Shown here piece after piece: positions 1 to 10,169 of a DNA stretch of 35,297 nucleotides. How positions within the stretch are numbered: the stretch's first letter is position 1; every line of letters begins with the position of its first letter. The translations under genes were made by a program, and so were the position numbers. This DNA is from Treponema sp. (GTDB lineage Bacteria > Spirochaetota > Spirochaetia > Treponematales > Breznakiellaceae). The notes below the pieces were generated by a model that saw nothing but the letters and a program-made list of their open reading frames with translations, was not told the origin of the DNA and did no database searches. The stretch lies in contig JAIRNP010000160.1 in the NCBI GenBank assembly GCA_031258005.1, positions 1-35,297 of the forward strand. The letters run 5' to 3'.

Positions 1-793
1 TATAATCTCTTGGTATCCATTTTTCATAATGATTCTTAAAATACTTTTCACCTTTACGCCACCTATCTTTGAGGGCTTTGGGCAGGCCGCTGATGTACCG
101 GTATACCGTAGCTTCGCCGGCCTGTATGCCGTATTGCTCCAACAATTCACACACTACTTTTACGCTGGGCTTATGGGGGTCAAGATAGAGCCACTCGATA
201 CGGTCTTTCGTTTCTTGGGATAATCCGGCGCACATACCGCCCCTGTCGTGGTATTGGGGTACAAGTCCCTCAAGACCGAATTGCTGATAGCGCCTGAGCC
301 AATTCTGGTAGAACATGGCGGTACTGCCGATGGTTCCCCAGCGCCCGAGGCGTTCTTTAATTTCCGGCAGGATCAACCCATCATTGTAATATTCAACAAA
401 CTGTTTTACTGAAACACCGGAATCGCTGTAATTATCAATGATTTTCTGCCGCTTGAAGGCGATGTCCCGTTCGGTTTCGGTGCAGTTGTCCCAGATTTTA
501 ATTGGTTTTTCCTCTTTTGATCTGCCTTTATAACCGCTTATATTGACCTTTAGGGGCGCTTTTGGCGGGGGTTTTAACTGGGTTTGAAGGGCTTCTAAAG
601 GCATTTGCAAGCCGGCTGCATAGGCGGCTTGGATGTCTTCGGGCAGGTCTTTGAGGTGGAACCGCTTCTGCTTGCCCCCGTTTCCGTTAATGGTTCGATA
701 TGCCCACTTTTCACGTTGCGCCTTTTTTTTGATGGCACTTTTGGTCAGAGATGTTAATTGAGCAATATCGTCAAAGATTAGCCATTTTTCCAT
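1..793 (-). CDS. MuA-like transposase, N-terminal part (runs off the window)
   Basis: The minus strand is open from an ATG at 793 to the window edge, giving about 264 residues; it is absent from the ORF track because it has no stop inside the window. It begins MEKWLIFDDIAQLTSLTKSA and continues with a region ending KQKRFHLKDLPEDIQAAY, which resembles the winged-helix Mu DNA-binding domain (about residues 1-60) that recognises element ends or enhancer sites. A second helix-turn-helix-like region follows (about 105-215, including GSTAMFYQNWLRRYQQFG), like the site-binding domains ahead of the DDE core in MuA. The catalytic core would lie off-window, so activity cannot be judged. The start lies 4 bp after the stop of the upstream small gene, so the two are probably co-transcribed. 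Confidence 0.75.
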   Translation of the reverse strand, partial: MEKWLIFDDIAQLTSLTKSAIKKKAQREKWAYRTINGNGGKQKRFHLKDLPEDIQAAYAAGLQMPLEALQTQLKPPPKAPLKVNISGYKGRSKEEKPIKIWDNCTETERDIAFKRQKIIDNYSDSGVSVKQFVEYYNDGLILPEIKERLGRWGTIGSTAMFYQNWLRRYQQFGLEGLVPQYHDRGGMCAGLSQETKDRIEWLYLDPHKPSVKVVCELLEQYGIQAGEATVYRYISGLPKALKDRWRKGEKYFKNHYEKWIPRDY

Positions 794-797
794 TAGA

Positions 798-983
798 CTA
801 TACAACCTTCGCCACCACATGGCGGTCATCAGGCATAAGTCCATATTGATTACGGAGAGCATTTTCCAATAGAATCTCCGCTTGCTGTGTAAAGCTCCGG
901 CGTTCTTCTTGGGCCATCTTCTCGATAATCTGTATCAGAGATCTTTCCATGCTTAAAGTCTTAGTTATTCTCTCTTTCCTCAT
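798..983 (-). CDS. small ribbon-helix-helix-like protein (Ner-position regulator)
   Basis: A protein of about 61 residues, basic at the N-terminus (MRKERITKTLSMERSL) followed by two predicted helices around IIEKMAQEERRSFTQQAEIL. This pattern fits the MetJ/Arc ribbon-helix-helix family of DNA-binding proteins. I chose the ATG at 983 over the GTG at 989 in the ORF track because a TTAGGAG ribosome-binding site lies 5 bp ahead of it. Its stop is 4 bp from the transposase start. It occupies the place of ner in phage Mu, so a role in controlling the early promoter is inferred. No sequence similarity to Ner is claimed. Confidence 0.65.
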   Translation of the reverse strand: MRKERITKTLSMERSLIQIIEKMAQEERRSFTQQAEILLENALRNQYGLMPDDRHVVAKVV

Positions 984-1002
984 ATTCACTCCTAATAATC
1001 CA

Positions 1003-1031
1003 AATATAATCTAAATAGAACCCATAGTCAA
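1003..1031 (-). promoter_or_regulatory. sigma-70-type promoter of the regulator-transposase operon
   Basis: On the minus strand TTGACT (1026-1031) is followed after exactly 17 bp by TATATT (1003-1008), close to the sigma-70 consensus. Transcription would start near 996, just ahead of the TTAGGAG site and the ATG at 983. It lies in the 63-bp gap between the two divergent small genes, where a repressor operator would be expected by analogy with Mu. Confidence 0.72.
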
Positions 1032-1046
1032 TAATTTTCAAAAAAA

Positions 1047-1310
1047 ATGAAAAAAATTACCGAAAATAAAGATATGGGAATTAAAGGAAATGAGATTAAA
1101 AAACAGTCGATAAATTTCGACAAATGGATGGCGGGTGCTATCCAGGATATAGCCGATAAAAATGGTTTAACATTTACATCTGTGGTAATTGAGCTATTAC
1201 GTCAAGAATTGGCTGCTATGGGCTATACAATGGGAATAGGCCGAGAATCCGTGAAGGAGCAATCGATCAAACAGGATTCCAGAGCAGAAAAAAGAGAAGC
1301 TACAGGATAG
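1047..1310 (+). CDS. small RHH-like protein, divergent from the transposase operon
   Basis: A protein of 87 residues, rich in Lys and Glu. The central part (FDKWMAGAIQDIADKNGLTF then TSVVIELLRQELAAMGY) has the helix spacing of a ribbon-helix-helix or CopG-like DNA-binding fold. The tail is charged and probably disordered. The ATG at 1047 is preceded by an A-run rather than a clear ribosome-binding site; an internal ATG at residue 11 is an alternative start. By position (divergent from the ner-like gene and facing the element end) it corresponds to the Mu repressor gene c, but the function is inferred only from position. Confidence 0.55.
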   Translation: MKKITENKDMGIKGNEIKKQSINFDKWMAGAIQDIADKNGLTFTSVVIELLRQELAAMGYTMGIGRESVKEQSIKQDSRAEKREATG

Positions 1311-1391
1311 TCCAGTATGAAGGGAATATAATATTTGTAGATTTCTATGGAAAGAACATAAATTTATAGATGTTTATATAGTGGTTATAAT

Positions 1392-1530
1392 TTCCCTACC
1401 TTTCCAAAATTTGGCTTCCCCACCTTATTTCCCCACCTTTTATTTTAGAGCGGGTATAAGTCTATATAATATATAGACTTATACCCAACTTCCCCACCTT
1501 TTCCAAGTTTATTTTTTAATTCCCCACCTT
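1392..1530 (+). repeat. cluster of 11-bp direct repeats TTCCCCACCTT
   Basis: TTCCCCACCTT occurs four times exactly, all in the same orientation, beginning at 1416, 1429, 1490 and 1520. A fifth copy with one change (TTCCCTACCTT) begins at 1392. Spacing is 24, 13, 61 and 30 bp. The copies flank the palindrome at 1452-1486. They look like protein-binding sites (regulator or transposase) in the element end. No coding region is seen between 1311 and 1769. Confidence 0.85.
1452..1486. repeat. perfect 35-nt palindrome
   Basis: Two 17-nt arms, GGGTATAAGTCTATATA and its exact reverse complement, are separated by a single A. The arms share 11 of 13 bases with the outer half of the 26-bp inverted sites at 1581 and 1726, so they may be two head-to-head half-sites for the same protein. 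It sits between the second and third of the four exact 11-bp direct repeats. Confidence 0.88.
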
Positions 1531-1580
1531 TGTGGTTTTTTCCGGGTTTTCTATCTGCACCTTTGCAAGTAAGCCCTCGG

Positions 1581-1751
1581 ATAAATCTATACAGGATAAT
1601 GACTTAAAGATTCTTAAACGGTCTTAAATGGTAAGTGGCCGTATGACAGTTTTATGGCAGTTTTAGGACATTTTATGACATTTTCTGCATTTTTTTTTGC
1701 AGAGACTTTGTTGGACTTTTGCCGATAAGTCCTTATCCTATATGGATTTAT
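1581..1751. repeat. 26-bp inverted repeat pair (candidate transposase end sites)
   Basis: The 26 bp at 1581-1606 (starting ATAAATCTATACAGG) match the reverse complement of 1726-1751 at 23 of 26 positions. The copies are separated by 119 bp. The length is close to the 22-bp MuA binding sites, and Mu ends carry several such sites. If 1726-1751 is the outermost site, the element would end 14 or 23 bp further right. The site role is inferred; the repeat is directly visible. Confidence 0.8.
1603..1683 (+). repeat. helically phased short repeats
   Basis: CTTAAA occurs at 1603, 1613 and 1623, exactly 10 bp apart. From 1642 a second run follows: TATGACAGTTT, TATGGCAGTTT, TAGGACATTT, TATGACATTT, with units of 11, 11, 10 and 10 bp. 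Repeats in step with the DNA helix favour bending or side-by-side protein binding. They fill the space between the two 26-bp inverted sites. Confidence 0.75.
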
Positions 1752-1769
1752 TGAGATTCCAAGCATTCC

Positions 1770-2876
1770 GTGCAATTCTTATTTTACGTGATCCCCTACA
1801 CAGAAACCGCGCCGCCTGAAACCCCTTCCCCGCCGGAGCTCACACCGGGTAACAAGAAACTGACCCTCACCTGGCCGGCCTCCCCTCGGGCCGCGGGGTA
1901 TAAACTGTACTACAGCGCCGCGAACCGTTTCAGTTCCGCAGAGCTCTATGCCGACTCCATCAAACCCGTCTTCGGTACGGTGCGGGAGGAGCTCATTCTG
2001 CCGACCAACAACCAGACCTATTATGTGTGGATCACGGCGTATAACTCCCAAGGGGATTCAGAGCCAAGTCAAAGCGCCGGCGGCAAGCCTGCGGCCCCGG
2101 TTCCGATTGATTTCACCAACGTGGACTTCACCCTAGGAATGGCCCAGGCGGAATACGTCTTCAGCGAAGTAAACCCTCCGGGCCCCTTCAACACCAGCGG
2201 TAAGCTCTGGGACAGGCTCACCCGCCGTAAGGAAACGGCCCTGGGGAATCTCTTCTGCGACGGCTCCGCCTGGTTTGTCCGAACCCACTACAACGAAACC
2301 TTTGATTTCGTATTCCTCAACGGGGGCTATCTGGATCAGCCCCTGGGCAAGGGTACGGTTACGGTGGGCGCCATCGAGAGCATCCCTCCCCCCAATGCCC
2401 GGGATGATTTCTACACGGTGATCACCCTGAAAGGGCCGGAGTTGAAACTCCTCCTTGACCAGGCTGCGGCCATACGGAACATGGGCAGGGGAGGGAAAAA
2501 TACCGGCGGCTGGGGCATGGTCTCCCAGGAGCTGCATTACACCATCCAGTATCCTGAACGGGGCAGCACCACGAACCTGGAACTGTTCTTCTATGGAACC
2601 ATCAAAGAAGGGTCCGTAAGCCTTAACGGGAAGACCCCCGACTTCAGCGAGGATGCGACCTACCGGATTTGTACCGCCAATTATCTGGCTTCAGGAGGGG
2701 ACGGGTACACCGCCTTTGTCATTGCGGTCCGGGATTATCCGGGCATAGCCAATGTGCGGAACATCCAGGTACCCATCTGGCAGGGGGTAAGCGAGTACAT
2801 CTACGACCAGGGGAAGATTACCCCTTATGTAGACGGCAGAGTGAAACAGGAAGGCGGAGGGGTAATGTGCGAATAG
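1770..2876 (+). pseudogene. 5'-truncated protein: fibronectin III + 5'-nucleotidase C-terminal domain
   Basis: The open frame encodes 368 residues from a GTG. Residues about 15-105 form a fibronectin type III domain (KLTLTWPASPRAAGYKLYYS, then TYYVWITAYN). Residues about 140-345 match the 5'-nucleotidase C-terminal domain: ETALGNLFCDGSAW, then FLNGGYLDQPLGKGTVTVG, and the hallmark ANYLASGGDGYTAF. No signal peptide, lipobox or ribosome-binding site precedes it, and the frame opens exactly where the AT-rich element ends. I therefore read it as the 3' part of an exported or surface protein cut by the insertion. The metallophosphatase domain that usually precedes this C-terminal domain is absent. 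Its last codons overlap the start of the TonB receptor, so the two were probably co-translated. Confidence 0.7.
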
Positions 2877-4961
2877 AAAACCGGATATTTTTGGCGGTAT
2901 GCCTTGTAGGGCTTGCGGGGTTTGCCTTCTCCCAGGAAGGCGCCTTCTTCGAGGAAGGTACCGGTGATGCATCCGTGGATTCATCCATGAATACGAATAA
3001 TGGAACGGATGAAGAGGTCATACTCCTGCCTGAGGCGGGGGTTGAAGCGGAACGGGATACGCCGGAACATATCACCCGGGAGGAGATGGACCGGGACGGG
3101 ACCGCGGATCTGTGGGAGGCGGTCCGGTATGTGCCGGGGGTGGTTCTTTCAGGCGGGGGCCGGCGGAACGATTCAAACTTCAGTGTCCGGGGTTTTGGAG
3201 CGGACAGTGTGCCCATATTCATCGACGGCATCGTCCTAGGCAATCCCTACCGGGGCGAGGGGGATGCGGCGCGGTTTTTAACCGCGGATCTGGAGAGCAT
3301 TGACATACAGAAGGGCTATTCCTCCATGCTCCTGGGGGCAAACACCATGGGGGGCGCCATTGTGATGCGGACCGCCAAACCGAAAAAGCCCCTGGAACTG
3401 TCCATAAAAACCAGTATGGACCTGGACAGCGCTTTTCAATTTGCCGGAACCACCACGGTTTTTAACCTGGGCGGCAGGAACGATACCTTGTACGGACGAG
3501 CGGTCTTTCAGTACCGGGATGTGGATCATTACCGGCTGCCCGCTTCATTCGAGGCGGATCCAGAAGGGGAAAATCCGCAAGAAGCCGGGGACCGGCTGTG
3601 GTCCGACTCGAAAGACCGCAAACTCACCCTGCTTGCGGGTATGACCCCCTTTCCGGCCTTGATGTATGGCTGAGTTATGTGTATCAGGATGCGAACAAGG
3701 GCTTTTCCCCCCCGGAAACCCGGGGACGGGACTACCAAATATGGGAGTGGCCCCTGTGGGAACGGCAGAGTATCGCGCTTAACGGCGCTTACGCCTTTAA
3801 CGATATAAGTCTGGATGTACTAGTCTATTTTGACTCCTATGCTAACCGCTTGGACGAATACTACAGTTGGGACACCTATGTGCTGGAAGTGCACAACGGC
3901 CATTCGGATTATGATGAATATACGACCGGCGGGCGGATCACCGGAAAATGGGATATAAGCCCCCAGCATACGCTCCAGGCTGCACTGACCTATAAGAAAG
4001 AGGATCATCAAGGCTTGTGGCGGGAGGCGTTGCACATGCACGTAAACGAAGACACCTGGTCCCTGGGCGGGGAATACGGGTTCACCCCGTTTTACGGCCT
4101 CACCCTGCGGGGGGACTGGGGTTTGACGCGCTCGTTCCCATTGACTATTGGGGAAAAGAAAACGAGCTTATGAAAAAACTGGGGAGCGCCTACTATGCGG
4201 ATCATTTTATCATCCGCACCAAGCCCATGTTTCTTATGACCTGGCAGGCCGGTGTATTCTACCAGATTACCCCGGATCACGAAGTGCGCCTGACCTATGC
4301 CCGGAAGAACCATTTTCCCACCATGTCCCAGCGGTATTCCACCCGGTTTGGCCGCAGCTTCCCGAATCCGAGCTTGGGCCCTGAAATCGCCAGCCATTTT
4401 GAGCTGGGGTATCACGGCACATTATTGGGAAAACTCACGGTAAACACCGTGGTGTATTACAGCCTCATCACCGGTAAGATCGTCAGCGTGGGCTGGCCCA
4501 GCCCCAACCGGCCGATGAATTCCCTGGACTATGCGAAGAACCTGGATCGGTCCGCCTTTTACGGGTTTGAGCTTGCCCCGGAATGGTATGGGAACGAGTA
4601 TTGCAGCGGGGGCCTCTCTTTTTCGGTGAACCGGTATTATATCTATCACAGCGAGAACAACGTTAAGGAGATACCCTACTATCCGATGATAACCGCGAAT
4701 GCCTATATGGTTCTCAAAGCCTTGAGGGTCCTGTCGATCCTTCCCCGCCTTGAATACCTGGATTCCCGTTACGTGAATACCGAAGGGGAGAAAAAACTAC
4801 CGGCCTATGTTCTGGCCCATCTGAAACTCAGCGCGAGTCTGGGGAAATACCTTGTTCTGTCCGCAGGGGTGGAAAATCTATTCGATACCCTCTACGAGAT
4901 AAAACAATACTTTCCCCTGGCAGGCCGGGTTTTCAATTTGTCCCTGGAGGCGAAGTATTGA
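2867..4961 (+). pseudogene. TonB-dependent outer-membrane receptor, two frameshifts
   Basis: A GTG at 2867, behind GGAGGGG, starts a signal peptide (FLAVCLVGLAGFAFS) and overlaps the previous gene by 10 bp. Then comes a plug domain (about residues 45-175, with DLWEAVRYVPGVVLSGGG, then VRGFGADSVPIFIDGI and MGGAIVMRT). A beta-barrel follows, ending in VENLFDTLYEIKQYFPLAGR, typical of the last strands. The barrel is split over three frames. Adding one C to CCCCC near 3645 restores MTPLSGLDVWLSYVY, and adding one G to GGGG near 4120 restores GDWGFDALVPIDYW. The repaired protein has about 698 residues, a normal receptor length. These could be true mutations or homopolymer sequencing errors. The substrate is unknown. 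Confidence 0.85.
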
Positions 4962-9323: not shown

Positions 9324-10169
9324 ATGGTTATTAACCCCCGTTTTCAAAGACTTGCCCTGCTCACCGGTTCTGAAGCCCTGGAGGCCTGTGATCGAACCAG
9401 GGTGACGGTTTTCGGTGTAGGCGGTGTGGGAAGCTGGTGTGCTGAAGCCTTGGTTCGTTCAGGGATCGGGAACCTGGCCATCGTGGATTCTGACCGAGTA
9501 TGCGTTACGAATATAAACCGCCAAGTCCAGGCGATAAGCAGTACCCTAGGACAGGCTAAAGTGGAAGCCCTGAGATCCCGGCTCTTGGCGATCAACCCGG
9601 GATGCCGGGTCCAGGCTTTTGGAAAGGTCTTCTCCCGTGCAACGGCAGATAGCTTTACGATGGAAAAGGCCGACTACATTATTGATGCGATTGACAGCCT
9701 CACCCATAAACTGGATCTGATTGAAGCGGTTACCCGGCGGGGAATACGGCTTTACGCTTCTATGGGAATGGCGCAGAAACTGGATCCTACCCAACTGAAG
9801 ATCGCGGATATTTGGGAGACTCAGGGCTGTCCTCTGGCACGACTGGTCCGGTCCGGTTTACGGAAACGCGGTTTTCAGGGACATGTTACCGTGGTATACA
9901 GCGCCGAGCGGATACCCCTCTCTCGGGGAATTCCGGTTTCCTGCGGTTCCGCCCAATGCCTCTGTCCAAAGGGGGCCGCCTCGAGGGAGGATGAAGCAGG
10001 GGACCTTTCGGTGGAATGGTGCAGTTCCAGGAAGGTGATCAATGGCAGCGCCGTACCGGTTACGGCTGCAGCAGGGATGATCCTCGCCAGCCTGGTGATC
10101 CGGGATATCTATGCCCGGTATGCCCTGGAACCTCAGGGGAAAGCTCCCTTTGAGGCTGCCGGGTTATGA
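9324..10169 (+). CDS. tcdA: tRNA threonylcarbamoyladenosine dehydratase
   Basis: E1/ThiF-fold enzyme that uses ATP to cyclise t6A37 in tRNA to ct6A. The 281-residue protein has the nucleotide-binding GVGGVGSWCAEALVRSGIG (about 32-50), the acidic strand VDSDRVCVTNINRQ and the central DAIDSLTHKLDLI. The C-terminal VINGSAVPVTAAAGMILASL is typical of TcdA/CsdL. The ORF track starts at 8910, but the first 138 codons there lie under the VanY gene; similarity begins at the ATG at 9324. It overlaps ttcA by 4 bp (ATGA), so the two tRNA modification genes are coupled. Confidence 0.9.
   Translation: MVINPRFQRLALLTGSEALEACDRTRVTVFGVGGVGSWCAEALVRSGIGNLAIVDSDRVCVTNINRQVQAISSTLGQAKVEALRSRLLAINPGCRVQAFGKVFSRATADSFTMEKADYIIDAIDSLTHKLDLIEAVTRRGIRLYASMGMAQKLDPTQLKIADIWETQGCPLARLVRSGLRKRGFQGHVTVVYSAERIPLSRGIPVSCGSAQCLCPKGAASREDEAGDLSVEWCSSRKVINGSAVPVTAAAGMILASLVIRDIYARYALEPQGKAPFEAAGL

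Follow-up and report, generated by a model that had tools for sequence, protein, structure and literature searches.

A Mu-like element end in a gut Treponema genome that probably carries an Arc/Mnt-type ribbon-helix-helix switch in place of c and Ner

INTRODUCTION

The regulatory switch and the transposition ends of phage Mu are textbook systems, known mainly from proteobacteria. The stretch of DNA analyzed here (the window; 35,297 nucleotides) is the whole of contig C77 in a 2.65-Mb draft genome of Treponema sp., and its first bases raise the question of what kind of element ends there and by what kind of repressors it is controlled. We found that window bases 1-1800 are the left end of a Mu-family element, truncated by the contig start inside transposase A, and that the two regulatory slots next to the transposase gene hold small proteins best read as ribbon-helix-helix (RHH) proteins, a reading that rests on weak profile scores and on conservation.

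RESULTS

A repeated element has its tip inside a host gene

The window shares its end sequence with the starts of several contigs of its own genome and diverges from them after about base 1800: C127 matches at 97% over 120 bases, C135 at 86%, and C1 and C27 at 72% over 276. In the genome of a sister species, G002 (G002:C130, L243), the host gene is uninterrupted and forms a 623-aa open reading frame, with which the window alignment begins at the tip. Since the end is common to own-genome contigs and the host gene is intact in G002, a repeated element has interrupted this gene, and its tip is base 1800 (Table 1). The earlier note on this DNA had placed the boundary at 1770; the diverging contigs and the intact sister-species gene put the actual tip 30 bases further. 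Scanning 200 family genomes with the terminal-sequence pattern yielded 26 sites in 13 of them and none with the reversed control, so the element end stands far beyond chance. The claim of an element end as such is thus borne out by the shared tip, the empty site in the sister species and the pattern scan.

Table 1. Features at the left end of the element and in the adjoining host gene (window coordinates)
Feature	Position	Strand	Remarks
MuA-like transposase, N-terminal 264 aa	2..793	-	ATG at 793; contig start cuts just before DDE domain
ner-position gene, small RHH (Arc/CopG-type) predicted DNA-binding protein	798..983	-	ATG at 983; AGGAG upstream; four bases before A start
Candidate RHH operator	995..1017	-	two 11-bp-spaced TTWGRTTAT repeats covering the -10 box; L348 has them with equal spacing and location
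Promoter of inward ner-A operon	1003..1031	-	TTGACT-N17-TATATT; TTGACG-N18-TATATT at the same place in L348
c-position gene, small RHH protein, Mnt-like by position	1047..1310	+	divergent from ner-position gene
Iteron 5	1390..1403	-	AAAGGTAGGGAAAT
Iteron 4	1413..1426	-	AAGGTGGGGAA core
Iteron 3	1427..1440	-	AAGGTGGGGAA core
Site 3, third 27-bp dyad copy	1452..1486	.	35-bp perfect palindrome with 17-bp perfect arms; between iterons 2 and 3
Iteron 2	1488..1501	-	
Iteron 1	1518..1531	-	
Site 2, 27-bp dyad	1581..1607	.	about 194 bp from tip
Site 1, 27-bp dyad	1725..1751	.	50 bp from tip; inverted relative to site 2
Terminal sequence	1767..1800	-	5'-TGTAGGGGATCA...AAAATAAGAATTGCACGG; element end at 1800; own-genome contigs shared then diverging, and terminal-pattern scan
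Interrupted host gene, 3' part	1801..2876	+	fibronectin III and 5'-nucleotidase C-terminal type domains (Pfam); intact 623-aa ORF in G002:C130

A defined TG..CA tip with copies at differing places, as in Mu-like phages, is present in the window element, whose own copy ends in TG..CA; some family copies have TA. Own-genome contigs C124 and C139 share a 118-base tip, identical in both, next to unrelated flanks, and represent a second type of end. They (as L226 and L227), together with L022 and L023, form one end subfamily that ends in TA, not CA (CCCCTATA), which is unusual for Mu-type ends.

The contig holds no catalytic core, MuB, late genes or right end of the window element. The other half of the interrupted host gene, sought as a route to the right end, is absent from the genome bin, as is the other half of the tatD gene interrupted on C135. 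Among the own-genome ends, pairing of tips by 5-bp duplications gave no fitting pair by eye, and two dyad-motif matches inside C90 and C21 were rejected as right ends, because neither has a terminal sequence beside it. Among viral contigs, the terminal motif matched only L144. On C135 (L011, bases 1-640), another tip of the family interrupts the tatD-type DNase gene, of which two further full copies are present. Next to the window element, a TonB-dependent-receptor-like gene (2867-4958) is broken into three frames, where its 695-aa homologue in G002:C130 is intact; the break reflects either a frameshifted pseudogene or assembly errors.

Transposase A belongs to a clade that includes Mu-type phages

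Read inward, the end presents the tip, the rightward c-position gene, a divergent promoter, the ner-position gene and A, so the Mu gene order described earlier stands. The N-terminal part of A was likewise correctly recognized: it matches phrog_310 (E=8e-25) and shares, along its length, 41-49% identity with its nearest MuA-like relatives, from metagenome-assembled genomes (MAGs) titled Treponema sp. or Spirochaetaceae, while its match to HTH_Tnp_Mu_1 in Pfam is sub-threshold. In the shared part, the MuA of L022 is 49% identical; beyond it come DDE_2, rve and Mu-transpos_C domains, and the next gene encodes an AAA ATPase in the MuB position, where relatives carry an ATPase. The DDE core expected of such a transposase is thus present in this relative (DDE_2, Mu-transpos_C) beyond the shared N-terminal part, and the window copy ends before it. 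No MuB of the window element was found in its own genome bin with a relative's MuB as query, and the MuA query found no close relative among viral contigs and phage records. Known phage transposases share about 22-25% protein identity with the full-length relative, and none was detected with the window part.

Across relatives, the clade carries Gam, GemA, Mor, Portal_Mu, Phage_Mu_F and Mu-like protease domains: GemA and Mor in L144, Gam in G060, and a Mu-type portal, F protein and protease in G107, whose terminase-position gene has no Pfam match. Because clade members carry portal, F and protease genes, the transposase family includes Mu-type phages, and a compact transposon as the hallmark of the family was rejected on the same grounds. 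The compact Mu-like transposon family proposed in the earlier note is therefore not supported as a description of the family, and L144 keeps that reading alive for some members. In more distant spirochaete Mu-like phages (L145, L026 in G037, L334 in G179 and L328 in G069), head genes that read leftward are found beyond the c gene, a permutation of the Mu gene order.

The ner and c slots hold RHH-like proteins

The best matches of both small proteins in PHROGs are Arc-like repressors, phrog_228 for the ner-position protein (E=2.5e-4) and phrog_582 for the c-position protein (E=0.0012). Neither passed the Pfam cut-off, and neither matched a c or Ner family in Pfam or PHROGs. Searches of the PDB gave no significant match (all E>0.04), and RHH proteins rank first or among the first in three of these non-significant lists: CopG for the ner-position protein, AmrZ for its small alignment, and a HicB-type antitoxin and Rv0298 for the c-position alignment. 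The single-sequence PDB search with the c-position protein returned no RHH protein, and Arc and Mnt were not returned with either regulator. No RHH regulators were found by sequence in the phage and viral collections. Single-sequence structure models of both proteins are all-helical and lack the RHH strand; such models are uninformative for an obligate dimer and lend no support.

The pair recurs in relatives. Homologues of the c-position protein occur in G003, G106, G004 and G222, with 60-73% identity in the first three, and RHH-like proteins in the ner position of L348, L351 and G066:C6 share 28-37% identity with the ner-position protein. In L348 (G003; bases 1-1561), a c-type RHH gene is divergent from a second RHH-like gene that is followed by a Bro-N/Ant anti-repressor gene, and a divergent RHH pair is also found in L351. 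In G004, a second species, the c-type RHH gene adjoins an element tip with the same iteron as the window. A decayed copy in another genus, G066:C6, has a different small protein in the c slot, RHH-looking by eye, and in the ner slot an RHH-like frame with one stop, followed by pieces of MuA. The earlier assignment of both regulators as RHH-like, and not Mu Ner/c, thus agrees with weak Arc-like PHROG matches and with the recurrence of the pair. Most clade relatives, by eye and profile search, have helix-turn-helix (HTH) regulators in the c and ner slots (L023 and L068; HTH and S24-like in L066 and L085), and the RHH regulators are one variant within the transposase clade, not its hallmark.

The promoter of the inward operon has the sequence given in the earlier note, and its homologous position is conserved in L348. 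The promoter-pattern scan found six promoter-like sites with 4.1 expected and is, on its own, not above chance. Over the -10 box lie the TTWGRTTAT repeats of Table 1. An 11-bp spacing is expected for adjacent RHH dimers, and since the repeats fit it, we propose them as the operator.

Dyads and iterons keep a common geometry with element-specific sequence

The repeat-rich terminal zone seen earlier is real and spans 1386-1751. It contains three copies of a 27-bp dyad at 50, 194 and 319 bp from the tip, and many ends of the family have two or three copies at similar distances. Two copies of AAGGTGGGGAA lie on one side of site 3 and three on the other, one of them with AGGG; other elements keep this arrangement, with spacings almost unchanged but a different core (AAGGTRGGAAA, AAGGTGCGAAA, AAGGTGTAAA, AAGGTGGGACA or AAGGTATCAG). 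The outer arms of site 3 co-vary between elements: 43 of 77 pairs match when both arms come from one element, compared with 24+/-4 when arms were swapped between elements (maximum 38 in 2000 shuffles), a count that is not a strict probability, as the shuffles ignore relatedness.

The rigid array of dyads and iterons extends 50-411 bp from the tip. Most likely it offers a platform to which A or an element-specific partner would bind, similar to the Mu enhancer. Less likely, it is just the terminator of the c gene, an explanation weakened by L144, which carries the palindrome at an end that does not adjoin c. The left end of Mu has three MuA sites, to which the three sub-terminal dyads may be compared, with a binding protein that is putative here. 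We tentatively suggest, as a possibility that has the odds against it, that the three dyads and five iterons form a control and assembly zone of rigid geometry and element-specific cores and arms, which would co-evolve with a protein, restrict recognition to the element's own ends and be combined with exchangeable HTH or RHH switches.

DISCUSSION

Window bases 1-1800 are probably the left end of a Mu-like transposable phage or prophage that sits within a host gene of a termite-gut-type Treponema and is equipped with an Arc/Mnt-type RHH switch. We infer both the phage nature of the window copy and the function of every site. With phage Mu and its relatives, the end shares the tip, with TG..CA in the window copy, c placed toward the tip, the divergent ner-A operon, a MuA-type transposase, MuB as the next gene in relatives and, in clade members, Gam, GemA, Mor, portal, F and protease. 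It differs from Mu in the sub-terminal set of three 27-bp dyads and five iterons and in the class of its regulators: c and ner are divergent at the left end by position, whereas the proteins in these slots are of RHH type and those of Mu of HTH type. The HTH-type Mu-like elements of Treponema MAGs (L023, L066, L068, L085 and G163) share the transposase clade and, where the end is present, the tip, dyads and iteron geometry, but their c is a DicA/RstR-like HTH protein (L023) or HTH and S24-like (L066 and L085), and their ner a small HTH-like protein.

Divergent transcription and autoregulation of two small RHH-class repressors are features of the immunity I region of P22. In the window, too, two small proteins of this class are transcribed divergently, one of them heading an operon, an RHH assignment that is weak but consistent. 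The window operon drives the transposase and no ant, which enters only by comparison with L348, where the sister cassette heads the anti-repressor gene. The layout of the P22 region (mnt, arc and ant; PMC2629481) is matched by the L348 cassette, so that bases 1-1561 of L348 present a P22 immI-like divergent pair on a Treponema-type MAG contig.

In the proposed switch, an Arc/Mnt-type RHH repressor pair would replace Mu Ner and c in the control of lysogeny. During quiescence, the c-position protein would bind the repeats over the -10 box and shut off the ner-A(-B) operon, which would be transcribed upon induction. Ner in Mu and Arc in P22 down-regulate their own operon and the repressor gene, and the ner-position RHH protein might then do the same, limiting A. 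Transposase A would assemble on the tip and sub-terminal sites, leading to replicative transposition.

How much of a phage the window copy belongs to can be read in other ways. One reading, unlikely but with a real chance, is a compact Mu-like transposon or phage satellite of about 10 kb, with regulators and early genes and without virion genes. The one contig that speaks for such a form is L144 (IMG/VR, 12 kb), whose MuA is 45% identical to that of the window. On it, A, B, ThyX-like, GemA, Mor and DUF4406-like genes are followed after about 0.7 kb by a tip (9340-10131) that has site 1, site 3 and iterons, with no head or tail genes between. However, in G107, of the same MuA/MuB clade, portal, F and protease genes come behind these early genes, and Mor, which activates the middle operon in Mu, would have little purpose in an element that lacks late genes. 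Moreover, the left end of L144 is missing, and the contig may be an internal deletion or a chimera; if it is neither, the tip that follows the early genes is a right end of like architecture. The window copy could also be a defective remnant in which the left end and part of A survive, the rest is lost, and nothing is regulated or moved any longer. Many ends of the family are decayed (G002:C138, G066:C6, G013:C62 and G001:C172, the last without most of the c gene), the contig ends inside A, and its own MuB was not found in the bin, yet we consider this improbable: the reading frames of both regulators and of the A part are open, conservation of the c-position gene between species is 60-73%, and assembly is expected to break contigs within multi-copy elements. 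In the G001 element (L022:3440-3560), ner and most of an S24-type c gene are lost and the last c codons adjoin an intact A, possibly a derepressed derivative or an assembly junction.

The switch itself would disappear if the two RHH genes were a toxin-antitoxin type or otherwise unrelated cargo pair that sits in the ner and c positions by chance. RHH proteins are common antitoxins, and the c-position protein has a weak BrnA match. Against this, no toxin gene adjoins either gene, the pair is divergent around the promoter with the ner-position gene four bases from A, the same pair stands ahead of an anti-repressor in L348, and it is precisely these slots that carry HTH repressor genes in other members, all of which leaves a chance pair very improbable. 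The preferred reading thus remains a Mu-like (pro)phage end with an RHH-type switch.

We found no description in the open-access literature of c and ner replaced by RHH proteins, or of an iteron and palindrome zone of this kind. While a Mu-like end itself is of a known kind, we regard an RHH-type switch that replaces c and Ner at a genuine Mu-like phage or transposon left end as new. In this spirochaete family, the whole c/ner module has apparently been replaced by an unrelated repressor class with the gene order kept, which suggests that Mu-like phages can swap their on/off switch wholesale and lets one ask what the ner slot really must do. Moreover, the constant geometry and element-specific sequence of the sub-terminal zone offer a model, open to testing, for the way in which related transposable phages that share a genome may keep their ends apart.
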